Under the pieces are notes generated by a model. That model ran no database searches, was not told the origin of the DNA, and saw nothing but the letters and a program-made list of their open reading frames with translations. From contig JABDAW010000014.1 in the NCBI GenBank assembly GCA_013288905.1, forward strand, positions 1 through 32,615: a stretch of 32,615 bases of DNA, written 5' to 3'. This document shows, piece by piece, positions 3,633 to 26,649 of the stretch (position 1 is its first letter; each line of letters opens with the position of its first letter). The stretch comes from Bacteroidota bacterium. GTDB lineage: Bacteria > Bacteroidota > Bacteroidia > AKYH767-A > JABDAW01. A program made the translations under genes and the position numbers.

Positions 3633-6026
3633 ATGGAAACGAAAATTGATTTTAGTAAATTTAAAAACGAATCTTTCTTTCAAAAGTTGAAAGAGTTTGC
3701 TAGCAAGCCTCCCAAGAAAGATTTGGTGTATGTATTCTTTGGAGGTACTGGTGCTGTAGGCGGGCAGGCTGTAATTGAGATTATTCAAGCATTTGACTTT
3801 ATTGTTTCTGTTAATCCTTCTTGGATTGAAAGTAAACCACTTTTACTTGCGACTGGATTAAGCAAACCTGAAATAGATCGATTCAAAATGAAACTTGAAA
3901 AGGCTTTTGTTTCTGAAAATGGACATGGATTTGAGATGTTTGAAGGAGTTGATAATAGTGCAACCTTAACATTAAAAAGAAAATCAGGAATATCAATTGA
4001 ATTTCATGAATTGGTTGCAAAGCCTACATTTAGTATTGATTTAGTTGAGAAAATAAACGGTAAAAATAAGAATGAAATAAAGGAGTTTTTAAATTCATTA
4101 CCTTCAGTTATTAACTCACCTTTTGAATCGTTTTTGAAAAATTATATTGAAAGAAACAAATTTGATAGTGATTTTAGATTTCAAACTGTTATTTCTGGTA
4201 TCCCAATTCCCTCGGTAGCTGCATATAGTTTTGGAAGTGAAATTGATAAAATTCTCGTAAGTATAGGAGTGAAAAATAATGACCCCAATAAAGAAATCGA
4301 AAGGGCTATTAATGTAAAAATTTTACATGGATTCGCAAATGATTTCGGACAGATAAAAAACAATTTAGCTTATGAAGTGTTAATAGCTCACACTACTTCT
4401 GTAGGTGGTATGTACACTATTGCAGAAGAGGGAAAACCTGTAATTAATTTAGGATATGCACATAGTGCCATGGATGATTTCTTAGTTGAAAAGCAATTTT
4501 ATGCTGAAAATTTGACGGAAAAATATTCTGAACTTGGATTAAAAGTATTAATAACTGCTGCTGCTATTGGTATTGATTCTATTTCAATCAATGAAACATT
4601 GCCAATGAAAAAAAGTATCTTCAAGAAATATAAATCAGCTGAAATGAATGGAAATTTGCCTTATGATTCAAGTAATTTAGTTGAAGAATCAATTGCTATT
4701 TTTCAACCTAAATCTATTGCATTTACTAATAAAGAAAGTGGCATTGAAAATTCAGATAAGATAAATTTTGAGGCTTTTAATGCAGGAACTGTAAGACCTG
4801 AATTTGCTTTAAGAAGTGGTGAAAATGGAATGTTTTCCTTAGATAATGCTTATGCTCTCTATTTAAACATGAAAGTTGCATCCCAGGAAGAGTTGTCGCA
4901 TATTTTGGTATTTAATGCTTTGTTTGGAGATGATAAGCAACGCCCGTGGTTTGAAAATGGAATTTGTTATCAAACTGAAACAGAAAATGCAACTATTGTA
5001 TTTTCCTTGTTAAATAATTATCCTAAATTCAGAAAATATCAGACTTCAGGATTTACACCAAAAGCACTCCAGGATTTAGGTTCTGCTAAACATCAATGCG
5101 AATTGCATACAGTTGGGCTTTATATGCTTTTACATAAACTGAAATCATTAGATACTGATATTTTAATTGAAAAGGTAACTACTCATTACAGCGAAAACGA
5201 TGTATTAAAGTTTGTTGATAACTATACCCCACAACTAACTATTGAGAATATTATCGGATATGACCCTATACAAAAAGCAAAAGAATTTTCGACCTTAATA
5301 ACAATAAATTCATTAGATGAATTAATATCATTTTTTGGTTTTAATGGGGATATTAAAAATGATTTTATTAAAACCTTTTTAACTAACCTATTAAAGATAA
5401 TTAAGCAAACTATCTATACTATTACCTCTTTAGGAACTCCAATCGTTTATCTTGACAAAGAAGAAGTGAGGATTTTAATTGGACCATTTTGTGCAGCTAT
5501 TGAAGGAGCTGACAGCGGGGTAATAAGCCATAATAATTCTTTATTACAATATATTAAGGATAGTGCAAAAAAATCTAATCTTGATTTTAATAATTATTTT
5601 GAATGGGTTGTTGCTAACTCTGGTTTTATTGATTTGAGACCTCAAGCAACAATAACAACTGCAAAGAATTTAAAAACTGGGCTGAATGATAAAATTTGGA
5701 TTGTTCAAAAAGGTAATGACTTTCGAATCAGTATTAATTCAATTAAGAATGAGAATAACTTAAGTTCATCAAATGGTTATTTTACAAGCAGTGGAGTAGT
5801 TGCATTTATTGGGAGGATAACAGGACTTTACGAACAACTTAAAGATTTTGATATTTCACTAGGGACATTAAATAATTGGAAGGCATTATTTCCTATTGAT
5901 TCAAATGAACAACATCCTGTTATCCCAGGCTTAATTGAAGCTATGAGAATGTACACAGAGGGACTTGGAAAAGTTACAGGATTTGAATTACTTTATCCTG
6001 GATTTGGATATTTCCAAAATAAATAA
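3633..6026 (+). CDS. large hypothetical protein with N-terminal Rossmann-like motif
   Basis: The ORF track begins at 3576 inside the tRNA; the first sensible ATG is at 3633, giving 797 residues. I do not recognise the family. Residues 31-50 (LVYVFFGGTGAVGGQAVIEI) form a strand, glycine-rich loop (GGTGAVGG, 37-44) and helix typical of an NAD(P)-binding Rossmann fold. Later segments include LIAHTTSVGGMYTIAEEGKP and LKVLITAAAIGID, which again look like alternating strand and helix, then a long mostly helical C-terminal half with FCAAIEGADSGV. No signal peptide or membrane segment is evident, so it is probably cytoplasmic. It lies between tRNA-Phe (25 bp away) and pheT (21 bp away) on the same strand, suggesting co-transcription with pheT-pheS. 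An NAD(P)-dependent oxidoreductase or epimerase-like role is possible but unproven. Confidence 0.85.
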   Translation: METKIDFSKFKNESFFQKLKEFASKPPKKDLVYVFFGGTGAVGGQAVIEIIQAFDFIVSVNPSWIESKPLLLATGLSKPEIDRFKMKLEKAFVSENGHGFEMFEGVDNSATLTLKRKSGISIEFHELVAKPTFSIDLVEKINGKNKNEIKEFLNSLPSVINSPFESFLKNYIERNKFDSDFRFQTVISGIPIPSVAAYSFGSEIDKILVSIGVKNNDPNKEIERAINVKILHGFANDFGQIKNNLAYEVLIAHTTSVGGMYTIAEEGKPVINLGYAHSAMDDFLVEKQFYAENLTEKYSELGLKVLITAAAIGIDSISINETLPMKKSIFKKYKSAEMNGNLPYDSSNLVEESIAIFQPKSIAFTNKESGIENSDKINFEAFNAGTVRPEFALRSGENGMFSLDNAYALYLNMKVASQEELSHILVFNALFGDDKQRPWFENGICYQTETENATIVFSLLNNYPKFRKYQTSGFTPKALQDLGSAKHQCELHTVGLYMLLHKLKSLDTDILIEKVTTHYSENDVLKFVDNYTPQLTIENIIGYDPIQKAKEFSTLITINSLDELISFFGFNGDIKNDFIKTFLTNLLKIIKQTIYTITSLGTPIVYLDKEEVRILIGPFCAAIEGADSGVISHNNSLLQYIKDSAKKSNLDFNNYFEWVVANSGFIDLRPQATITTAKNLKTGLNDKIWIVQKGNDFRISINSIKNENNLSSSNGYFTSSGVVAFIGRITGLYEQLKDFDISLGTLNNWKALFPIDSNEQHPVIPGLIEAMRMYTEGLGKVTGFELLYPGFGYFQNK

Positions 6027-6047
6027 AATTTATTAATAAAACAAATA

Positions 6048-8477
6048 ATGAAGATTAGTTATAACTGGCTTAAGGAATATCTTGATTTCAATATTTCACC
6101 AAAAGAAATTGGAGAGGTCTTAACAGATTGTGGATTGGAGGTAGAGGAAATAAAAACATTTGAAAGCATATCAGGTGGATTAGAAGGAATAGTAATTGGA
6201 GAGATTAAGGAATTAATAAAACATTCAAATGCTGAAAAACTTTCTATTACCAAAGTTGATGTTGGGGAAATTGATTTACTACAAATTGTCTGTGGTGCTT
6301 CAAATATTAAAGTTGGGCAAAAGGTCGCAGTTGCTTTGATTGGTTCTACAATCAATCATATTAATGGTGAAAAATTAAATATTAAAAAGGCAAAAATCAA
6401 AGGTGTAGAAAGTTTTGGGATGATTTGCGCTGAAGATGAATTAGGATTAGGAATGAACCATGAAGGAATTTTGGAATTACCTCCTGATGTAAAAATTGGT
6501 ACTAATGCATCCGATTATTATAAAATAGAAAGAGATTTTGTTTTTGAGATAGGTTTAACACCAAATAGAGGAGATGCAAATTCACATATTGGTGTTGCAC
6601 GCGATCTTTACGCTGCTTTAAATATTAACAGTAACACAAATGTAAAATTTACCAAACCTGATTTATCAGGTTTTAAAATTGATAATACTAACAGAACTAT
6701 ATCAGTTGAAGTATTAGATTCAGTAGCATGTCCAAGATATTCAGGTATTACAATTTCTAATGTTACTATAAAAGAATCTCCAGATTGGCTAAAAAATAAA
6801 TTAAAAGCAATAGGTGTTCGTTCTATTAACAATGTGGTTGACATTACTAATTACTTGCTTCATGAATATGGACAGCCACTACATGCTTTTGATGCCGATA
6901 AAATTCGAGGTTCAAAAATAGTGGTGAGACAAGAAAAGCAAAATACTTCATTTAAAACTCTTGATGGGAACGAAATAAAACTTAATGCCGATGATCTTAT
7001 CATTTGTGATGCAATTGGTGGAATGTGTATTGCCGGTGTTTATGGTGGATTTGAAAGTGGAATAAATTCAGAAACTACAAAGAATATTTTCTTAGAAAGT
7101 GCTTATTTTAATCCTACTACTATTCGTAAAACTTCAATATCTCATAATTTAAGAACTGATGCAGCCTTGCACTTTGAGAAAGCATGTGACCCCAACATAA
7201 CTGTAGATGTATTAAAACGAGCAGCTATTCTTATTAAAGAAATAGCAGGTGGTGAAATTTCATCAGAAATCATAGATGTTTATCCTAACCCAATTGAAGG
7301 TTTTAGATTCTCTATTTCTTATGATAGAATTATGCAACTTAGTGGATTTCCTATCGAAAAGGAAATCATTAAAAAGATCTTAAACTACCTTGAAGTTATA
7401 ATCGAAAAAGAAGAGTCTGGTAGGCTTGATATTTTAGTGCCAGCCTTTAAAAATGATGTTCGGCGAGAAGCGGACATAGTTGAGGAAATTTTAAGAATTT
7501 ATGGCTACAATAATATTGAACTCACTGATGAGCTTTCGTCAGCATATTTACCAAAAATAAATTTCAATCATTATTATTTTAAACAATTTGAAACTTCAAA
7601 ACTTTTATCTGGAAATGGATTTCAAGAAATCATCTGCAACTCTTTAACAAATCTTTCAGAACTAAAAAATTATTTTGAGCCTTCGAATAATGTTACTGTA
7701 CTAAATTCGAAAAGTGTGGATTTGGATACCCTACGGAGAAGCCTATTAATTTCAGGACTTGAAGCCATTTCCTTTAATATCAAGCATAAACATTCAAACC
7801 TTAAATTCTTTGAATTTGGTAAAGTTTATGAAAAGGTAAACTCTGATTTGAAGGAAGAAAGAATCTTAAGTTTAATGATTACTGGGAACATAAATGAAGA
7901 AAGTTGGTATTCAAAAAACAAGAACGCAGATTTATTTAAACTGCTTTCAATCATTAAAAAAATCCTAACGAAACATGGTATAGAATATACAATAATTAAA
8001 GTTGCTAATAGTCTTTTTCATTATTGTTTAGAATTAAGAGATAAAAGCAACAATGTATTAGGTATTGTTGGCTTAGTTACAGATGATCTCAACAATAAGT
8101 ATGATATAAAAAAAGAAGTTTTTTATGCCGAGTTAAATTGGGATATAATCCTTTCACTCAAAGGTAAACTATCTGTATATAAAGAAATTGTAAAATTTCC
8201 TGAAGTTAGAAGAGACTTATCTTTAATCATAGATAAAAAAGTTACCTATGATGAGATTAAATGTTTGATTTTTGAAAAGTCCGATAAGCTAATTAAAGAA
8301 CTAAATATTTTTGACATCTATGAAAGCGAATCATTAGGAATTGGCAAAAAGTCTTATTCTTTGTCAGTCATTCTTCAAAGCGATATGAAAACATTGACAG
8401 TAGAGGATATTGATAAAGTCATGAACAATCTTATTAATAAGCTCGAATTAAAACTTAATGCAACTATTAGAAAATAA
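6048..8477 (+). CDS. pheT: phenylalanyl-tRNA synthetase beta subunit
   Basis: The 809-residue beta chain of the heterotetrameric PheRS, which charges tRNA-Phe and edits mischarged Tyr-tRNA-Phe. Domains in order: N-terminal start MKISYNWLKEYLDF, EMAP-type tRNA-binding domain (about 40-150, HSNAEKLSITKVDVG...CGASNIKVGQ), B3/B4 editing domain (about 210-400, with RSINNVVDITNY and HAFDADK), B5 (about 405-475, ending NDVRREADIVEEI), the catalytic-like core, and the C-terminal ferredoxin-like anticodon-binding domain (about 713-806, FPEVRRDLSLIIDKKVTYDEI). Length is standard. pheS follows after 12 bp, so the order is pheT-pheS, the reverse of the common pheST arrangement. No Shine-Dalgarno precedes the ATG; the leader is A/T-rich. 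Confidence 0.98.
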   Translation: MKISYNWLKEYLDFNISPKEIGEVLTDCGLEVEEIKTFESISGGLEGIVIGEIKELIKHSNAEKLSITKVDVGEIDLLQIVCGASNIKVGQKVAVALIGSTINHINGEKLNIKKAKIKGVESFGMICAEDELGLGMNHEGILELPPDVKIGTNASDYYKIERDFVFEIGLTPNRGDANSHIGVARDLYAALNINSNTNVKFTKPDLSGFKIDNTNRTISVEVLDSVACPRYSGITISNVTIKESPDWLKNKLKAIGVRSINNVVDITNYLLHEYGQPLHAFDADKIRGSKIVVRQEKQNTSFKTLDGNEIKLNADDLIICDAIGGMCIAGVYGGFESGINSETTKNIFLESAYFNPTTIRKTSISHNLRTDAALHFEKACDPNITVDVLKRAAILIKEIAGGEISSEIIDVYPNPIEGFRFSISYDRIMQLSGFPIEKEIIKKILNYLEVIIEKEESGRLDILVPAFKNDVRREADIVEEILRIYGYNNIELTDELSSAYLPKINFNHYYFKQFETSKLLSGNGFQEIICNSLTNLSELKNYFEPSNNVTVLNSKSVDLDTLRRSLLISGLEAISFNIKHKHSNLKFFEFGKVYEKVNSDLKEERILSLMITGNINEESWYSKNKNADLFKLLSIIKKILTKHGIEYTIIKVANSLFHYCLELRDKSNNVLGIVGLVTDDLNNKYDIKKEVFYAELNWDIILSLKGKLSVYKEIVKFPEVRRDLSLIIDKKVTYDEIKCLIFEKSDKLIKELNIFDIYESESLGIGKKSYSLSVILQSDMKTLTVEDIDKVMNNLINKLELKLNATIRK

Positions 8478-8489
8478 AAGATTAAAACC

Positions 8490-9518
8490 ATGAAAAATCA
8501 AATAGAATCATTACAAAAAGAGATAGATGATTTCCGAATAAACGATAATCAAACTCTCGAAAAATATAGAATAGAATTTCTAAGCAAAAATGGAAAAGTT
8601 CAAAAATTATTTGATGATTTTAAAAGTGTGTCTATTGATCAAAAAAGGGAAATTGGACAAAAACTCAATCTCTTAAAAACTGTTTCTGAAAATAAATATA
8701 ATGAGTCGAAAGAAGCGATTATAAAAACCACATCAAATATAGGAATAGAAGTCCCTGACTTCTCTTTACCTGAAATTCCAAATGAAGATGGGACAATACA
8801 TCCACTATCACAAGTTCTTGAAAAAATAATAAAAATATTTTCTGGTATCGGTTACGATTTGTCTGATGGTCCTGAAATTGAGGATGATTGGCATAATTTT
8901 ACAGCCTTAAACTTCCCTCCCAACCACCCCGCACGAGAAATGCAGGATAGCTTTTTTATTAATAAAAATCCTGATATATTACTTAGAACTCACACATCAA
9001 ATGCACAGGTTAGGATTATGGAATCAGGAAAAATGCCAATAAGAATTATCTCCCCTGGAAGAGTTTACAGGAATGAAGTTATTTCAGCAAGAGCACATTG
9101 CCTATTTCATCAGGTTGAAGGTCTATATATAAATAAAAATGTTAGCTTTAAAGAACTAAAAGATACCATTTATTACTTTGTAAAAGCTATGTTTGGAGAT
9201 AATACAAAAGTTAGATTCAGACCATCATTTTTCCCATTTACTGAACCAAGTGCAGAAGTGGATATCTCATGTTTGATTTGTCATGGTAAGGGTTGTAATG
9301 TTTGTAAATATTCAGGTTGGGTTGAAATTATGGGTTGTGGCATGGTAGATACACAAGTTCTTGAAAATTGTAATATTAATCCAAATGAATTTTCAGGTTT
9401 TGCATTTGGCATGGGTTTAGAAAGGATAACAATGCTCCATTATCAAATTAAGGATTTAAGATTATTTTTTGAGAATGATGTCAGGTTTTTACGACAATTT
9501 CAAAATCAAAACATTTAG
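8490..9518 (+). CDS. pheS: phenylalanyl-tRNA synthetase alpha subunit
   Basis: The 342-residue catalytic alpha chain of PheRS, a class II synthetase. An N-terminal coiled coil (about 1-85) that contacts tRNA is followed by the class II core: HTSNAQVRIM, motif 2 GRVYRNEVISARAHCLFHQVEG, FRPSFFPFTEPSAEVDI, and motif 3 GFAFGMGLERITMLHY near the C-terminus. A cysteine-rich insert (CLICHGKGCNVC) may bind zinc; such an insert is common in many bacterial PheS proteins. The gene lies 12 bp after pheT and is presumably expressed with it. Its stop codon is one base from the stop of the converging alanine dehydrogenase gene, so any terminators must lie inside coding sequence. Confidence 0.98.
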   Translation: MKNQIESLQKEIDDFRINDNQTLEKYRIEFLSKNGKVQKLFDDFKSVSIDQKREIGQKLNLLKTVSENKYNESKEAIIKTTSNIGIEVPDFSLPEIPNEDGTIHPLSQVLEKIIKIFSGIGYDLSDGPEIEDDWHNFTALNFPPNHPAREMQDSFFINKNPDILLRTHTSNAQVRIMESGKMPIRIISPGRVYRNEVISARAHCLFHQVEGLYINKNVSFKELKDTIYYFVKAMFGDNTKVRFRPSFFPFTEPSAEVDISCLICHGKGCNVCKYSGWVEIMGCGMVDTQVLENCNINPNEFSGFAFGMGLERITMLHYQIKDLRLFFENDVRFLRQFQNQNI

Positions 9519-9519
9519 G

Positions 9520-10674
9520 TTAACTTAAATCTAATTTTTGGGATGCCAATAATAATTCAATATCCTTATATGGCATTTTGTATTGTTCACTAATATGTTT
9601 TTTTGTAATTATTCCTTTATACATATATATACCAAATCGCACTCCCTGATCAAACCATACAAATTCTGCCAAACCACCTGCTTTTCCAATATTTAATAAT
9701 ATTGGTGTTATCACATTACTAATAGCATAAGAGGCTGTATGTGCCACTCGTGAAGGTATATTTGGAACGCAATAATGAATTACTCCATATTTGATAAAAG
9801 TTGGGTCAGAATGATTTCTAATCTCTGAAGTTTCAAAACAACCACCGACATCAATATTCACATCAATAATTACAGAACCTGCTGACATTTGGCTAACCAT
9901 TTCTTCGGAAACTATACATCTTGAAATTCCATTTTTCGGAGCCATTGCCCCAATTGCAACATCAGAATTTTTCAAAGACCTTGCTAAGGTATCTGGTGAT
10001 AATATAGATGTAAATAATCTTGAACCAAGATGATTTTGTAATCTTCTTAATTTATATAGCGCACTATCAAATATTTCAACATTCGCACCAAGACCAATTG
10101 CAGTTCTTGCTGCAAATTCACCCACTGTTCCAGCACCAATAATTACTACATTAGAAGGTGGTATTCCAGTAATTCCTCCAAGCATTTCTCCCCTTCCATG
10201 CTTTACATTACTTAAATATTCAGCCGCTATTAGCATTGAGGTACTCCCTGCAATTTCACTCATAGATTGAATGATTGAATATATACCAATTTTATCTTTG
10301 ATAAAATCAAAGGCAAGAGCATTAACTTTTTTTGAAGCTAAATTCAAAAAGAATTTTTCAGTTTGTGTTCCAAATTGAAGCATGGAAATAAGGCTATGAT
10401 TAGCCTTTAAATATAAGATTTCGTTTTCTGTTGGAGGAGCTATTTTTAAAATAATATTTGCCTTGAAAATATCTTCTGTATTATAAACAATTTTTGCTCC
10501 AGCTTCACTGTATTCACCATCAGAAAAGTTCGATAACTTTCCGGCTCCAGATTCAAGAATAATTTCATGACCATTATTACATAATAAAGCAACTGCATTT
10601 GGAACTAAAGGAACTCTATTTTCTTGGAATGATGTTTCCTTTAGAATACCTATAAAAAGACTGTTTTTGTTCAT
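9520..10674 (-). CDS. ald: alanine dehydrogenase family protein
   Basis: A 384-residue member of the alanine dehydrogenase / transhydrogenase-alpha family, which interconverts L-alanine and pyruvate with NAD. Seen: substrate arginine in ENRVPLVP (R20), substrate lysine in LKIAPP (K77), a Rossmann loop IGAGTVGEFAART (180-190), and VIIDVNIDVGGCFETS followed by VIHYCVPNIPSRVAHTAS, which is diagnostic for the family. The catalytic histidine found in characterised Ald enzymes (in an FLHL motif) aligns here with glutamine (SMLQF, Q100); my impression is that related Bacteroidota proteins share this. Function as an alanine dehydrogenase is therefore likely but not certain. It converges with pheS with a single base between stop codons. 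Confidence 0.88.
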   Translation of the reverse strand: MNKNSLFIGILKETSFQENRVPLVPNAVALLCNNGHEIILESGAGKLSNFSDGEYSEAGAKIVYNTEDIFKANIILKIAPPTENEILYLKANHSLISMLQFGTQTEKFFLNLASKKVNALAFDFIKDKIGIYSIIQSMSEIAGSTSMLIAAEYLSNVKHGRGEMLGGITGIPPSNVVIIGAGTVGEFAARTAIGLGANVEIFDSALYKLRRLQNHLGSRLFTSILSPDTLARSLKNSDVAIGAMAPKNGISRCIVSEEMVSQMSAGSVIIDVNIDVGGCFETSEIRNHSDPTFIKYGVIHYCVPNIPSRVAHTASYAISNVITPILLNIGKAGGLAEFVWFDQGVRFGIYMYKGIITKKHISEQYKMPYKDIELLLASQKLDLS

Positions 10675-12234: not shown

Positions 12235-12240
12235 AAAAAT

Positions 12241-12351
12241 TATGGCAACGACATACTCTTCCAGCTTTCACACTAGTACCATCTGCGCTGACGGGCTTAA
12301 CTTCTCTGTTCGGGATGGGAAGAGGTGGACACCGCCGCTATAATCACCATA
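12241..12351 (-). rRNA. 5S ribosomal RNA
   Basis: The minus strand contains CCGAACAGAGAAGTTAAGCC and GATGGTACTAGTGTG, the conserved 5S core. Ends were set by pairing TATGGTG with the complementary CGTTGCCATA, giving about 111 bases. Last gene of the operon. Confidence 0.93.
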
Positions 12352-12443
12352 AATATCTTTAATATGATTTATTAGATTTAAAATGATTTTAGAATGAATC
12401 CTACAATCATTTTAATCATACTAATCATAGTACGACATTTAGA

Positions 12444-12458
12444 GAAAGAAAATACAAA
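12444..12458. other. 23S precursor processing stem, 3' arm
   Basis: GAAAGAAAATACAAA here is the exact reverse complement of 15395-15409 on the other side of 23S. Pairing continues with bulges toward the gene (AGAATTCATAGAA with its counterpart near 15373-15386). This is the expected RNase III-type stem. Confidence 0.75.
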
Positions 12459-12485
12459 AGAAACAGAATTCATAGAACGATATAA

Positions 12486-15367
<2,882 letters not shown>

Positions 15368-15394
15368 TATCAAATATTCTTATGAATTTTGATC

Positions 15395-15409
15395 TTTGTA
15401 TTTTCTTTC
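15395..15409. other. 23S precursor processing stem, 5' arm
   Basis: TTTGTATTTTCTTTC is the 15-bp exact partner of 12444-12458, bringing the two ends of pre-23S together. It lies just inside the boxA-like element. Confidence 0.75.
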
Positions 15410-15424
15410 AATATGTCAAAGAAC
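15409..15424 (-). promoter_or_regulatory. boxA-like antitermination element before 23S
   Basis: On the minus strand GTTCTTTGACATATTG. It differs at only two positions from the element before 16S (17426-17441). Position and GTTCTTTGA core fit an rRNA boxA, which binds the NusB-S10 antitermination complex in other bacteria. Confidence 0.6.
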
Positions 15425-15457
15425 CTTAGTTTAACTGTACATTTACAGCAAACTTTG

Positions 15458-15531
15458 TGGAGAATAACGGATTCGAACCGTTGACCCTCTGCGTGCAAGG
15501 CAGATGCTCTAGCCAGCTGAGCTAATTCCCC
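15458..15531 (-). tRNA. tRNA-Ala (anticodon TGC)
   Basis: A 74-base cloverleaf on the minus strand: acceptor GGGGAAT/ATTCTCC with one G-U pair, D-stem GCTC/GAGC, anticodon stem TCTGC/GCAGA with loop CTTGCAC, T-stem AACGG/CCGTT, discriminator A. Standard rRNA spacer tRNA. Confidence 0.96.
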
Positions 15532-15546
15532 CTTAACGAATTTTAG

Positions 15547-15621
15547 TAGTCCCGAGCAGACTTGAACTGCTGACCCCTACATTATCAGTGTAGTGCTCTA
15601 ACCAAACTGAGCTACGGGACT
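15547..15621 (-). tRNA. tRNA-Ile (anticodon GAT)
   Basis: A 75-base cloverleaf on the minus strand: acceptor AGTCCCG/CGGGACT, anticodon stem CTACA/TGTAG with loop CTGATAA, T-stem AGCAG/CTGCT, discriminator A. It lies 15 bp before tRNA-Ala in the 16S-23S spacer. Confidence 0.96.
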
Positions 15622-15622
15622 G

Positions 15623-15650
15623 TTAGATTTACGATTTTAGATTTACGATT
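15623..15650. repeat. two tandem 14-bp repeats beside tRNA-Ile
   Basis: TTAGATTTACGATT occurs twice head to tail, one base upstream of the tRNA-Ile gene in the 16S-tRNA spacer. The rest of the 212-bp spacer holds the 16S processing stem arm and nothing else recognised. Confidence 0.75.
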
Positions 15651-15761
15651 TACAAATTTGATTAAATCAAACAGTACTTCGAACATCGTAAGTCTTATTT
15701 TCCTTCCCTCAGATGGCAGAACCACCATTAAGCTCGTTATGGGTAATATTTCAAATTAGTA

Positions 15762-15786
15762 TTTGAAGATTGGAGGAAGCAACAAG
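15762..15786. other. 16S precursor processing stem, 3' arm
   Basis: AGGAAGCAACAAG (15774-15786) is the exact reverse complement of 17411-17423 upstream of 16S, and TTTGAAG-ATTG extends the pairing outward with one bulge. Together about 25 nt close the pre-16S loop. Confidence 0.8.
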
Positions 15787-15832
15787 AAATAATGTTGTGA
15801 AAACAACGATTACTACAACAAAATCACTCTAG

Positions 15833-17354
<1,522 letters not shown>

Positions 17355-18170: not shown

Positions 18171-20477
18171 TCAATTATTATTAATCACCATCTTTCCTTT
18201 ATCAATAACCCCTTTATCAGTTCTTATCTTCCAGAAATAAATTCCATTGTTCAAATCCAGATTAAGTGTCTCTTTTCCTTCAATGTTGCTAATAGTATAG
18301 GAATAAAGTATTCTTCCAAGCATATCGGTAATAATAAAATCAGCATTTGTATTTTGTGGGATATTATAGATTAAAGTAGAGGTGCCATTGTTTGGATTTG
18401 GATAAAGGGATATTCCATTATTGACATTTAATTCTTCGATTCCATTAAATAGAACACATACTGTATCCGATACATTGGTGCATCCGTTTGAATCTGTTAC
18501 CATAACGGAATAGCAACCTGTTGATGGAGCTAAAAAATAATAATCAGTAGCTCCGGTCATTGGAGAATTATTCAATAACCATTGATTTCCGAAGGCGGTA
18601 CTTGATACAAGCAAATTACCATTAAAAGTTATGATAGGAACGGGAGGAAGGGAATGTACCAAGACAGTTGTATTAGTAGAAGTGCCTACGCAGTTGTTTA
18701 TATCTGTAAGAATTACTGAATAATTCCCTGAAGTATCTGCTGTGATGGTTTGTGTGGTATCTCCATTGTTCCAAAGATAGTGAACTCCAACATCAGATGA
18801 AAGATGAACACTGTCTCCCTGGCAAAATACCAAACTTCCATCTGCAGTTATAACTGGGACAGGAAGCGGATGAACAATAAGCACCGTGACTATGGTACTG
18901 TCGCAATTATGTGAGGAAATCAGATGACTTGTATCCAAAGTATCGTTCATGGAAGTGACCCCATCAGGGAAAGTAAAAGTATCTCCCTGGCAGATAGATG
19001 CCGAAACATATTGCTGGTAGGTTGGAAATACAATCAGGGTCGTGATGATGTTGCTATCACAGTAATGGATGGTCGAAAAATGGCTGGTATGAATACTATC
19101 CACCATTGAAGTTCCGCCATCGGGAAATGTAAAAGTATCACCATGGCAAATAGAAGCTGAATAATTGAAATTATAAGCAGGATGAACAATAAGGGCTGTA
19201 ATATAATTGCTGTCGCACATATTTATTGTACTGAAATGACTTGTCTGAATAGTATCTGTAGCTGCTGTAATTATTGATCCATCGGGAAAAGTATAACTAT
19301 TCCCCTGACATATAGTATCGGTAATAGGATAATAATAAGTTGGATTAACGGTAACTGACATGCTTGCAGTAGAAGTTGCCAGGCATCCATTGAAGTTGAT
19401 ACTAACAGAATAAGTCCCGGAAGTGAGAACCTTGATGCTGCGGCTGGTTCCGCCATTACTCCAGGAATAGTAGGTGGCAGTATCGCAGGTAAGAATTACA
19501 GAGTCGCCTTGACAGAAAGTCGTGGGACCACCTGCCGCGATTACAGGATTTAATAAAGCATTGCAGGGTGTATATTCCCAGAGATCTTTTCGACCATAAC
19601 CATCATACCCCATGGCAATATATCCTTTATCGCCAATCGAAAAACCAACATCTTGCTCTCTGACCTCTGTCCCGACATTGGCCTTTTGTGTCCAGACATT
19701 TGTTGCTTGATCCCATTCATAAAAATCATTAATATCATTATAATTCTGAAGAAGACCAGTACCTATATATCCTTTATTCCCAATAGAAAAGCCCGTTGCA
19801 AGATTTCTTATGCCAGGAGGGAAATTAGCTTTTTGAGTCCATGAGTTGGCTGTCTGATCCCATTCCCAGAAATCGCCCCACCAATTTCCATTGGATCCTG
19901 TTCCAACATAGCCCTTGGTACCTATTGCAAAACCTACCGCGCAATATCTTTGTGAACCGCCAAAGTTTGCCAGTTGAGTCCAGATATTGGTTGCCTGATC
20001 CCATTCCCAAAAGTCGTTGTAATAAAGACCTGTCGAGATGCTGTATCCTGTCCCTGCATAGCCCTTGGTGCCCATCGAAAAGGCAATACCATTCTGATCG
20101 CCACCACCGGGATAATTCGCTTTTTGTGTCCAGGTATTGGTTGCCTGATCCCATTCCCAAAGATGTTTGTCAAAACCTGTGGCGAGATAGCCTTTTGTTC
20201 CAATGGAAAATCCTACTGCATTCATTCGGGCAGCATCGGGCAGGCTGGCAATTTGAGTCCAGGTATCTGTGGCTTGATCCCATTCCCAAAAATCACTGTG
20301 AAATGCAAGATTTTCATCTCTGCCTGTGCCGATATAAGCTTTGGTGCCGATAGTGAAGCACATTGCTTCATACCTGAATCCACCAGCCATATCAGCTTTC
20401 TGGACCCATGAATTCTGTGCGTTTATAATCTGTGCGAAAGAAAGAATCAGTACTATCGTTTGTAAGTTTTTTATCAT
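18171..20477 (-). CDS. secreted Kelch-propeller protein with T9SS sorting domain
   Basis: A 768-residue exported protein. The signal peptide MIKNLQTIVLILSFAQIINA is probably cut before QNSW. Residues about 22-300 hold six Kelch-like repeats of 45-50 residues (FWEWDQATNTWTQKA...FSIGTKGYIGTG), a beta-propeller. Next is an Ig-like domain (FCQGDSVILTCDTATYYSW), then three copies of a roughly 50-residue repeat (SICHGDTFTFPDG...TSHFSTIHYCDSNIITTLIV), two more Ig-like modules, and a C-terminal type A sorting domain (about 690-768, LYPNPNNGTSTLIYN...GIYFWKIRTDKG) that directs export by the type IX system and surface anchoring or release. It begins 21 bp after the beta-helix gene, so the two form an operon. 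Ligand unknown; adhesion or glycan binding is a guess. Confidence 0.92.
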   Translation of the reverse strand: MIKNLQTIVLILSFAQIINAQNSWVQKADMAGGFRYEAMCFTIGTKAYIGTGRDENLAFHSDFWEWDQATDTWTQIASLPDAARMNAVGFSIGTKGYLATGFDKHLWEWDQATNTWTQKANYPGGGDQNGIAFSMGTKGYAGTGYSISTGLYYNDFWEWDQATNIWTQLANFGGSQRYCAVGFAIGTKGYVGTGSNGNWWGDFWEWDQTANSWTQKANFPPGIRNLATGFSIGNKGYIGTGLLQNYNDINDFYEWDQATNVWTQKANVGTEVREQDVGFSIGDKGYIAMGYDGYGRKDLWEYTPCNALLNPVIAAGGPTTFCQGDSVILTCDTATYYSWSNGGTSRSIKVLTSGTYSVSINFNGCLATSTASMSVTVNPTYYYPITDTICQGNSYTFPDGSIITAATDTIQTSHFSTINMCDSNYITALIVHPAYNFNYSASICHGDTFTFPDGGTSMVDSIHTSHFSTIHYCDSNIITTLIVFPTYQQYVSASICQGDTFTFPDGVTSMNDTLDTSHLISSHNCDSTIVTVLIVHPLPVPVITADGSLVFCQGDSVHLSSDVGVHYLWNNGDTTQTITADTSGNYSVILTDINNCVGTSTNTTVLVHSLPPVPIITFNGNLLVSSTAFGNQWLLNNSPMTGATDYYFLAPSTGCYSVMVTDSNGCTNVSDTVCVLFNGIEELNVNNGISLYPNPNNGTSTLIYNIPQNTNADFIITDMLGRILYSYTISNIEGKETLNLDLNNGIYFWKIRTDKGVIDKGKMVINNN

Positions 20478-20498: not shown

Positions 20499-21917
20499 TT
20501 ATTCTAAAATCATCTTCCCGATACTCAAGATTTCTTTATTCTCATCCATGACTTTATAGAAATACATGCCGCTTGAGAGTTGTTCTCGGTTAATCGTTAT
20601 TTGTTTATTCGTCCCTACTGGTATGCTTCTGACTTCCTGTCCAAGGAGGTTGTAGATGAATAAGGAGGGGTTATTATAGGTGCCTTGAAGGGTGAGGGTT
20701 GTAGTGGTGGTGAAGGGATTGGGAATAAGAGAAATAGTATTCTCCTTATTATTAATTATTGAAACAGAGGTGGAATTAGAGTTACATGGTGAAATATAAT
20801 TAGGTACCGAGAATGGAACTGGACCTACATTATTACATTCAGTAGAATAAAAAGGAGTGAAGATAGCAATGGGGAGCATATTGTTAAAATAGTAGTCGGG
20901 AATCTTTGCGTGAATGGAAGTAGTATCGGTAGTACACCAATAATTATTCTGCACATTTAAAATAGTTGAATTAGGGAATAATTGGAAATCATAAGAGACA
21001 TTATTACAAAATGTATTACAAACAAACGAACCAGTTGAATAACCAGCATAATCAACAACCCCCAATGTGTCGTATTCAAATCTATTATTACTAAGAACGC
21101 AATTGGTTTCCCATAAAAATCCAAGTTGGTTATACATCAATTCACAATTTGCCATTGAAGTAATTCCACCAACGGCTATATGATTCGAATCAATAATACA
21201 ATTATTTATGTTTACAGTTAATCCTTCAACTCCTCCTATACTATTATAATTTATGATTGAATTTGTAACTGTGGCTCCACCAGATGTACCAGCAATTCCT
21301 GATCTATTACATTCAATTAAGCAGTTTTGAATTGACGAATTGTGCATTTGATTAATGCCGTTGCTATCATTTACTATCACACAAAAAGTTAGCGTTGAGT
21401 TTGATAAATTATCCAAACCATTGAGAATATTATTACTAAATATGCAAGTATCAATAGAACAACTGAAGGCATTTATGCCTGTTTGATTTGAATTAAAAAT
21501 GGAATTTTTTAAACTCAATGTGCCTGATTGTTGTGCTATTAGTGCTATATTGCCGTAATAAAAATTACAATAATTAAAAACTGAATTAGTTGATCCGTTC
21601 AAATTAATAGAATTCCAAAATCCTGGAATAGGAGAAACTGTATCCGCTGTAAATGTTACAGAATCAGTTTCAGTACCTATTGCATTTATAGTAGATTGTC
21701 TAATTTCTAAACCACATAGATGCTTAAATTTTACAGTAACTCCAGGTTGAATAGTAAGAGTTATTCCTGGAAAAACAACAACTGAATCTAGGATTATATA
21801 AGGACTTCCAATGGCTGTCCACGTGGTGTTTGAATAAATACCACCTGATACATTTGTCTGCCCCATTGCGCTCAACCCGATCATCATTACAATCATCACC
21901 AATTTCATTCCTGTCAT
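20499..21917 (-). CDS. secreted parallel beta-helix protein with T9SS sorting domain
   Basis: I place the start at 21917 (MTGMKLVMIV) rather than the tracked 21947, because that upstream ATG overlaps a promoter -7 element and would push the signal peptide inward; 21908 is also possible. The protein is about 472 residues. A signal peptide (to about SAMGQ) is followed by a long Asn/Ser/Ile-rich region (about 40-360) with spaced 'NCxI..N..G' turns (NSIFNSNQTGINAF, NCIIDSNHIAVGGI) typical of right-handed parallel beta-helices, as in pectate-lyase-like folds. The end has a T9SS type A sorting domain (LIPNPFTTTTTLTLQG...SGMYFYKVMDENKEIL). No catalytic residues can be assigned. First gene of the pair with the Kelch protein. 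Confidence 0.9.
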   Translation of the reverse strand: MTGMKLVMIVMMIGLSAMGQTNVSGGIYSNTTWTAIGSPYIILDSVVVFPGITLTIQPGVTVKFKHLCGLEIRQSTINAIGTETDSVTFTADTVSPIPGFWNSINLNGSTNSVFNYCNFYYGNIALIAQQSGTLSLKNSIFNSNQTGINAFSCSIDTCIFSNNILNGLDNLSNSTLTFCVIVNDSNGINQMHNSSIQNCLIECNRSGIAGTSGGATVTNSIINYNSIGGVEGLTVNINNCIIDSNHIAVGGITSMANCELMYNQLGFLWETNCVLSNNRFEYDTLGVVDYAGYSTGSFVCNTFCNNVSYDFQLFPNSTILNVQNNYWCTTDTTSIHAKIPDYYFNNMLPIAIFTPFYSTECNNVGPVPFSVPNYISPCNSNSTSVSIINNKENTISLIPNPFTTTTTLTLQGTYNNPSLFIYNLLGQEVRSIPVGTNKQITINREQLSSGMYFYKVMDENKEILSIGKMILE

Positions 21918-21944
21918 ATCAAATAGTTTTAAATTATTAAGCAG

Positions 21945-21952
21945 CAAAAGTA
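21945..21952 (-). promoter_or_regulatory. -7 promoter element TACTTTTG
   Basis: Minus-strand TACTTTTG fits TAnnTTTG and is followed by CTGC, as at other promoters here. It lies just before the beta-helix gene and argues for the start at 21917. No clear -33. Confidence 0.5.
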
Positions 21953-22102: not shown

Positions 22103-22228
22103 TAACCGGCGGAGTGGGAGGCTAAAAATTCTAAAGCTAAGAGAAAAGGTTCTTTAAAAGTCTGTAAGTGTTATTAAAATAGAGGGGTTTAGGCTTGATT
22201 TAGCTTGAAATCCTGAAAAACAAGTGGC

Positions 22229-22480
22229 TCCCCAAGGTTGAGGCGTCATTATCCAAGGATGGGGAATCATTCGCCAAGGCTTGGGAATCGCTATCCAAGG
22301 GTGGGGAATCGTTTGCCAAGGTTAGAAAATCATTCCCCAAAGTTGGGGAGTCGTTGCCCAAGGTTGGGGAGTCGTTGCCCAAGGTTGGGGAGTCATTCCC
22401 CAAGGCTGGGGAGCAGCTATCCAAGATTGGGGAATCGTTTACCAAGGCTGGAGAGTCGTTGTCCAAGGTTGGGGAATGAC
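22229..22480. repeat. 12 x 21-bp tandem array framed by a 10-bp inverted repeat
   Basis: Twelve head-to-tail units of exactly 21 bp, consensus about TNNCCAAGGTTGGGGAATCGT. The core CCAAGGTTGGGGA is well kept and the first three bases vary. No unit gains or loses a base. AAAAACAAGT (22216-22225) on the left and ACTTGTTTTT (22479-22488) on the right are perfect inverted repeats that frame the array. Both strands stay open across it (ORFs 22200-22502 and 22238-22537), as expected for a period divisible by three; neither looks like a gene. Confidence 0.93.
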
Positions 22481-22606
22481 TTGTTTTTGTGGAATCGGAC
22501 ATCTTATATTAATAACATGAGCAGGAAAATCGGATGAAATAATAAATTAAATTTAAAAATAGTTCAATAACAAGAGTATGGAAAAGCGAAGAGAAATTAC
22601 TAAAGC

Positions 22607-23248
22607 ATGAGAAAAGCTAACAAGCTAAAGGTACACGATTCTGACGAGCATATCGCCGAGGAATTGAACACTGCAGGTCCGCTGCTGGCTGGTGATGGCA
22701 ATGTTGATGTTGCCGCTTTGGGTGCGCTGGTGGTAAGTGCCGATGCTGCTTATGTAGCCTCGAGAACTGCCGACAATGCTGCCCAGGTTGCTGCTGAAAC
22801 TGCTACGGACACCAAAAATTCCAAGAAATCACTTGGAATCACGGCGTACAATAATGCGGTGGATGAGGTAAACAAGGTCTATCCTAATGATCCCGACAAA
22901 GTTACTGCGTTGGGGTTGAATGCGTCCAAAGAAAGGACGAATAAAGGGAATTGCCCTAAGATTACCGGCGGAAAAGCAGAGCAGTGGATTCATGATGGTT
23001 TTGCGCAACTTTCGTGGGATTCTTTAGGCGTTCTGGCGGATTATTACACGCTCGAAGAAGCTACCGGAGATCCGGCAGTTGAAACGAACTGGTATGCAGC
23101 GAATCCTCCTGATTCCAAAGAAGCCAAGAAAGTAATCGTGAAGCCAAAGACTTTGAATGTGCCAACTAATTGGAGAGTTACAGGCCACAACACTGCCGGT
23201 GTTGGGGTAGCTCCATCCGATGCATTCGGAGGCGATCCGATTCATTAG
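22607..23248 (+). CDS. small protein with Ala-rich helical part and FnIII-like domain
   Basis: A 213-residue protein with no signal peptide. The first 115 residues are Ala-rich and probably helical (DAAYVASRTADNAAQVAAETA). The remainder (about 118-205) fits a fibronectin type III-like sandwich: AQLSWDSLGVLADYYTLEE, then KVIVKPKTLNVPTNWRVTGHNTAGVGVAPSDAF, where the last part matches the 'yrV.a.N.aG.s..S' end of FnIII. GC content and codon use are far above the flanking genes. From memory, small proteins of this plan are frequent in environmental Bacteroidota; their role is unknown. A strong terminator-like hairpin follows. Confidence 0.82.
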   Translation: MRKANKLKVHDSDEHIAEELNTAGPLLAGDGNVDVAALGALVVSADAAYVASRTADNAAQVAAETATDTKNSKKSLGITAYNNAVDEVNKVYPNDPDKVTALGLNASKERTNKGNCPKITGGKAEQWIHDGFAQLSWDSLGVLADYYTLEEATGDPAVETNWYAANPPDSKEAKKVIVKPKTLNVPTNWRVTGHNTAGVGVAPSDAFGGDPIH

Positions 23249-23274: not shown

Positions 23275-23301
23275 AGCCCTTCGATTCACCATCGAAGGGC
23301 T
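23275..23301 (+). terminator. hairpin terminator
   Basis: Perfect 11-bp stem AGCCCTTCGAT / ATCGAAGGGCT with a 5-base loop, followed by TTCTGTTTGTT. It lies 27 bp after the 213-residue gene. The T-run is interrupted, so efficiency is uncertain. Confidence 0.75.
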
Positions 23302-23347: not shown

Positions 23348-23408
23348 AGGAACGCGTATGACGCAGAAAAATAGGTCTAATCTATTTTTCTGCGTCATAC
23401 GCGTTCCT
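23348..23408. repeat. perfect 27-bp inverted repeat, 7-base loop
   Basis: The left arm 23348-23374 begins AGGAACGCGTATGACGC and the right arm 23382-23408 is its exact reverse complement; the loop is GTCTAAT. It lies between the terminator of the 213-residue gene and the stop of the converging SBBP gene. The GAACGC..ATGACGC..AAAA pattern of the arm resembles a single motif on the minus strand at about 12165-12181. Confidence 0.95.
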
Positions 23409-26355: not shown

Positions 26356-26439
26356 TATAAATAATAGCAAATGAGATTATCTATAGGGTTTTTGTGTTCC
26401 GTGATTCACCCTATTAATAAAGCCACAGGAGACATTAAC

Positions 26440-26649
26440 CTCCTCTTAATTGATAATCCAAGGAGGTCAATTGATATTAGAAGAAGGTTAATTTATATTA
26501 TAAGGAGGTTAATTGATAATGCGAGGAGGTTAATTGATATTATAAGGAGGCTAATTGATAATGTGAGAAGGTTAATTGATAATGTGAGAAGGTTAATTGA
26601 TAATGTGTGAAGGTTAATTGATATTGGGAGGGGAATAATCTCTATTGGG
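26440..26649. repeat. ~10 x 21-bp tandem array with an inverted partial copy
   Basis: Consecutive 21-bp units with consensus AGGAGGTTAATTGATAATGTG; eight good copies run from 26461 to 26628 and degraded units lie at each end. Just left, ATTAACCTCCT (26434-26444) is the exact reverse complement of AGGAGGTTAAT, so it can form a hairpin with the units. It lies in the 532-bp gap between the SBBP gene and parE. The rest of the gap (26650-26769) shows nothing recognised. Confidence 0.93.

Follow-up and report, generated by a model that had tools for sequence, protein, structure and literature searches.

Repeats of the same constant-size, variable-sequence kind as those analyzed here were reportedly described by Subirana and Messeguer in J Bacteriol in 2020. 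Such bacterial repeats measure 20-23 nt or 52 nt, the 20-23-nt members are found in many bacterial groups, and many of the genomes carry a characteristic short sequence common to their repeats (Subirana and Messeguer, PMC8161180). These repeats are non-coding, span about two helical turns, keep one length across unrelated sequence families within a genome, and show a genus- or species-specific abundance that is partly conserved between strains. Borg tandem repeats form a second comparison: their unit is unique to the locus, evolves fast and varies in copy number, partial repeats flank the arrays, and the repeats are nearly absent from host genomes (PMC9879509). Miniature inverted-repeat transposable elements (MITEs) and other non-autonomous inverted-repeat elements provide a third.

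We analyzed a window of 32,615 nucleotides, which is the whole stretch of DNA presented above, together with sampled DNA from the same genome (G000), two congeners (G001, G002) and more distant relatives. Between two divergent genes of the window lies a tandem array with the following surroundings:

22229..22477, no strand assigned: imperfect tandem array, 11.9 units of 21 bp, unit TCCCCAAGGTTGGGGAATCAT (TRF, lag identity, dyad and indel count)
22216..22225, + strand: left arm AAAAACAAGT of a private 10-bp inverted repeat
22479..22488, - strand: right arm of the private 10-bp inverted repeat (ACTTGTTTTT on the + strand)
20499..21947, - strand: flanking gene for a secreted protein with a Por_Secre_tail (type IX secretion sorting) domain
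22607..23248, + strand: flanking divergent gene without a Pfam match, with relatives in both congeners

Within this array, identity is 0.73 at lag 21, 0.75 at lag 42 and 0.74 at lag 63, while off the period it is 0.39 for lags 20 and 22, and for most others 0.14-0.31. Compared with its own 42-bp consensus, the array has accumulated 37 substitutions (17% of bases deviate) and zero indel events. An earlier note on this DNA, made from the letters alone, had described twelve exact 21-bp repeats; the exactness applies to length, as no indel shifts the register, and not to sequence, as adjacent units are about 73% identical. Likewise, the array itself is recovered by TRF, but the CCAAGGTTGGGGA core is unbroken in just three of the 12 units. 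Alignment of units on one face of the helix would follow from 21/10.5. The units are contiguous, with none of the spacers of a CRISPR-type array, and Rfam gave no match for either the array or the end signature described below.

Several other features were observed in and around the window. The Por_Secre_tail domain of the gene product of 20499-21947 suggests Bacteroidota. In G002 (contig 72:1126-1744), stop codons interrupt the counterpart of the other flanking gene, 22607-23248. A period-35 (and 20) repeat of 2.4 copies lies past the first ORF (405-501), and an rRNA operon in the order 16S-tRNA-tRNA-23S-5S occupies 12240-17353 on the - strand (Rfam). A perfect 20-bp hairpin sits between convergent genes at 23355-23401 and another hairpin at 23275-23301; weak matches of these two to microRNA families are presumably due to chance.

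Arrays of this type are abundant in the genus. Sampling 333 kb of the window's genome, we found 35 with a period of 20, 21, 22, 42 or 84, along with 14 in 120 kb of G001 and 26 in 124 kb of G002. This corresponds to 10.5 arrays per 100 kb in the window's genome, 11.6 in G001 and 21.0 in G002, the latter two densities being rough, given that the G001 and G002 stretches were partly picked via homology searches. Compared with these 10-21 per 100 kb, arrays were scarce in the sampled relatives outside the genus: none was found in 176 kb of a genome from the same family (G003) and one in 422 kb of relatives from the order and class. Extrapolating from the sampled stretches and searches, at 35 per 333 kb, the incomplete 2.6-Mb genome is estimated to hold about 270. 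The underlying assemblies are draft metagenomes from short reads, which may truncate or collapse long arrays, and several arrays lie at contig ends. A search of GTDB genomes with a two-unit pattern returned no match.

The arrays are predominantly non-coding, with 91 of 99 clear of any ORF that reaches 100 codons once ORFs consisting mostly of array are set aside. It is very improbable that they encode heptad-repeat protein, in which 21 bp would represent seven codons. The period is divisible by three, the remaining eight of the 99 fall within an ORF of that size, and open frames number 2.7 versus 2.0 in column-permuted controls; however, 22-bp arrays occur, a second array in the window has no frame open throughout, and over most arrays the ORFs arise from the array itself. 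Searches of the literature yielded no relevant work on intergenic repeats of heptad or 21-nt type. The genus stretches include 128 intergenic regions no shorter than 250 bp, and 64 of them hold an array. Occupancy of about half would suit a nucleoid or regulatory protein that polymerizes on DNA with a two-turn step, such that spacing is selected and sequence drifts. We regard this explanation as unlikely, and the arrays in these regions have no clear preference for gene orientation, which counts against it.

Length is the property held constant. The three congeners share one repeat length over unrelated units: the period is 21 in 74 arrays and 42 in 20, with three of 22, one of 84 and one of 20. 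That the 21-bp spacing is what is conserved had been proposed in the earlier note, and it holds in all three species and for dozens of units unrelated in sequence; unit length varying freely in relatives, which the note had named as contrary evidence, was not seen. Across 91 arrays, 2189 substitutions were counted versus 57 indel events (38 per indel), and 74 of the 91 have no indel. We infer the constraint on length mainly from the spectrum of periods and less from this ratio. Several of our statistics were chosen post hoc, and thresholds for calling arrays differed a little from one script to another. Beyond the called arrays, exact direct repeats of at least 12 bases in intergenic DNA are spaced by 21 in 11 cases and by 14 in 10, compared with two in total for the other spacings of 16-27. 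These may be nascent arrays or relics. At L040:3578-3951 there is an array of 53 copies of a 7-bp unit, and spacings of 7 and 14 bp recur in intergenic DNA as well.

Unit sequence, in contrast, is free. Of 4465 pairs of units, only 24 are related, and a shared core motif was rejected because no universal short word exists among units: no 5- to 7-mer is commoner than the highest value from random sets of units, and the small number of 8-mers in excess trace to small related families. These results argue against the protein array. They are set against the constant 21-bp step with tolerated substitutions and the uneven variation of columns inside units, seen in 75% of arrays, both of which it would explain; a protein array has also been suggested for such repeats (PMC8161180).

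Comparisons between units and between sites point to local turnover. Units are more alike at even lags than at odd ones, and their identity falls as they lie further apart (0.83 for lag 2, 0.79 for 4, 0.77 for 8, 0.71 for 10), as is expected from local duplication of unit pairs; this decay is a further argument against the protein array. Two copies of one element at different G002 loci (L132, L144) differ by a clean 42-bp gap, equivalent to two units. Between the same two flanking genes, there are 414 bp with an array in the window's genome and 59 bp without one in G001, and at some sites an array present in one congener is missing in another. Conservation of position with turnover of units appeared striking at the first sites and was then abandoned: for orthologous flanks, arrays were present in both genomes at 7 sites, in the own genome only at 14, in the relative only at 8 and in neither at 37 (Fisher p 0.21). 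This lack of significant between-species conservation likewise counts against selection for a protein array.

Some arrays lie in duplicated DNA. In L052, two paralogous arrays have upstream sequences that are 75% identical and a 3' flank that is nearly identical. They belong to a segmental duplication (3867-6498 and 7968-10599) in which identity jumps at or near the array, which probably places a conversion junction within the array or close to it. A 770-bp inverted duplicate, 97% identical and containing a 22-bp palindromic array, is present at L047:7695-8464 and L054:16283-17051, with a related copy in G002 contig 52. Copies of other elements have uncertain boundaries and no clear target-site duplication. 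Separately, short dispersed elements at L050:14991-15107 and 18292-18352 have many matches in congeners on both strands.

On the basis of these sequence comparisons, we lean towards a genus-specific expansion of constant-length, variable-sequence non-coding satellites, which would have spread by slippage and recombination; we hold this to be slightly better than an even prospect. Slippage or unequal recombination between neighboring units would cause arrays to grow and shrink, hairpin folding may aid both, and duplication and gene conversion would carry arrays to new sites. The 21-bp step could reflect an intermediate spanning about two turns of the helix, or else the phasing needed by some factor bound to the array. 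Three observations count against this explanation. Slippage alone leaves unexplained why one genus has the 21-bp step when its family does not; the uneven column variation could also come from selection on a bound motif; and a terminal signature shared by some arrays is more structure than plain slippage requires.

Folding is relevant to this satellite model. A 293-nt stretch of the window has a predicted fold of -122 kcal/mol with the inverted repeat at its base (z -4.9 versus dinucleotide shuffles), but a null preserving repeat structure gives z of -1.3 and +0.7. The large hairpin suggested earlier is hence physically plausible, yet unexceptional for the window array once repeat structure is kept. 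Over 74 arrays, self-complementarity exceeds that of repeat-preserving shuffles, with a mean z of -1.9 on both strands and 45-49% of arrays below -2. Significantly dyadic units make up about 27%, among them that of the window array (CCCCAA-GG-TTGGGG, p 0.005); a universal hairpin unit was rejected on account of this proportion. Compensatory evolution of the dyads was also rejected, being weak (summed z 2.3, 17 double changes). Flank-to-flank inverted repeats reach a score of 12 in 7% of arrays versus 0.2%, and 14% of non-palindromic arrays versus 0.3% have inverted unit copies, which lie at or just past the array ends or, in a few cases, inside the array.

The excess of self-complementarity on both strands would also be consistent with transcription of the arrays into hairpin-rich regulatory RNAs, and satellites of Bacillus coagulans are transcribed (PMC8625621). 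With covariation this weak, strong dyads in about a quarter of units, inconsistent orientation to genes and no Rfam match, such a role is improbable.

The frame of the window array was confirmed. The perfect 10-bp inverted repeat reported in the earlier note was found with both arms, each a single copy within the window. Exact 10-bp matches at most 16 bp from array ends occur in 0.06% of mismatched flank pairs, and in a test of 90 arrays, for which chance predicts 0.06 such matches, this frame was the best. The idea that it marks a defined mobile element was not supported: AAAAACAAGT has 12 copies genome-wide and is paired solely here, no second array in the genome has the same frame, an outcome that the note had listed as contrary evidence, the remaining arrays carry different frames or none, and no target-site duplication abutting the frame was found. 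On the same evidence of unpaired copies, we rejected the frame as a shared, MITE-like terminal inverted repeat. The genus arrays resemble MITEs and related elements in that some lie in dispersed 350-420-bp units and some are framed by inverted repeats; unlike MITEs, they lack both a terminal inverted repeat in common and an established target-site duplication, and the window frame is private. Most likely, this frame is a product of the same foldback process rather than a transposon end.

A second array in the window has a different kind of end:

26446..26630, no strand assigned: second 21-bp array, unrelated unit TTAATTGATAATGTGAGAAGG, 8.8 copies (TRF)
26434..26445, no strand assigned: inverted unit fragment abutting the array end, score 9 (3% of null comparisons reach the same)
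26423..26437, - strand: terminal signature TAATGTCTCCTGTGG, common to many genus arrays of unrelated unit

The signature and the inverted fragment overlap by a few bases, and the region (26423-26630) lies downstream of a DNA gyrase B/ParE-type gene. Derived from words enriched outside arrays, the shared signature reads TTAATGTCTCC[G/T]NCG[G/A]. At a strict threshold, 11 of 97 arrays pass with 0.2 expected, using a weight matrix derived in part from the arrays that it scored; the second array passes and the array at 22229-22477 fails. A genome-wide pattern search, largely independent of the discovery data although some sites, such as L115, L120, L124 and L131, are discovery loci again, placed an adjacent array beside 15 of 23 signature sites in the three congeners, compared with 0 of 7 in G003 (among the matches listed). 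Genes beyond the signature differ in family and strand, and the signature was therefore rejected as the promoter of one gene family. As far as our searches reach, it appears to be new.

An end of this kind would suit a mobile element or dedicated array builder, in which an enzyme would read the conserved end, lay or copy 21-bp units and disperse elements of 350-420 bp. Its occurrence beside arrays of unrelated unit and the enrichment of arrays at signature sites are in line with this proposal, as are signature arrays that belong to dispersed 350-420-bp units whose homology stops near the element edges. We nevertheless consider it quite unlikely. The signature is missing from most arrays, no constant end was seen opposite it, and no target-site duplication has been established. 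In addition, no viral contig contains the signature, and it has only two exact matches in GTDB genomes, which are in unrelated taxa and look like chance.

The genus arrays stand closest to the repeats of Subirana and Messeguer, with which they share their non-coding nature, two-turn length, single repeat length over unrelated families within a genome and lineage-specific abundance. They differ in a step that is nearly always exactly 21 with higher-order 42-bp pairs, in filling about half of long intergenic regions, in the signature outside the repeats of some arrays and in the inverted unit copies at some ends; unlike many of those genomes, they share no characteristic short sequence. As far as our searches reach, the end signature, inverted unit copies and density are additions to the known class. 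The traits listed above for Borg repeats apply to the genus arrays as well, but Borg units are perfect or near-perfect, variable in length and about half in ORFs (PMC9879509), whereas the genus arrays are imperfect, fixed in length and mostly intergenic.

It is doubtful that a dedicated system reads the end signature and the 21-bp step, leaving unit sequence free while fixing unit length and the element end. If true, this system would be a new kind of array-forming genetic element, restricted to this genus. The known satellite class has been described but not explained, and the genus offers an unusually dense set of arrays together with an array-poor relative of the same family. It also offers a dispersed pair of copies separated by a whole number of units, a single site where the array is missing and an end signature that is conserved, so that how the repeat length is set can be tested both by comparison and at the bench.
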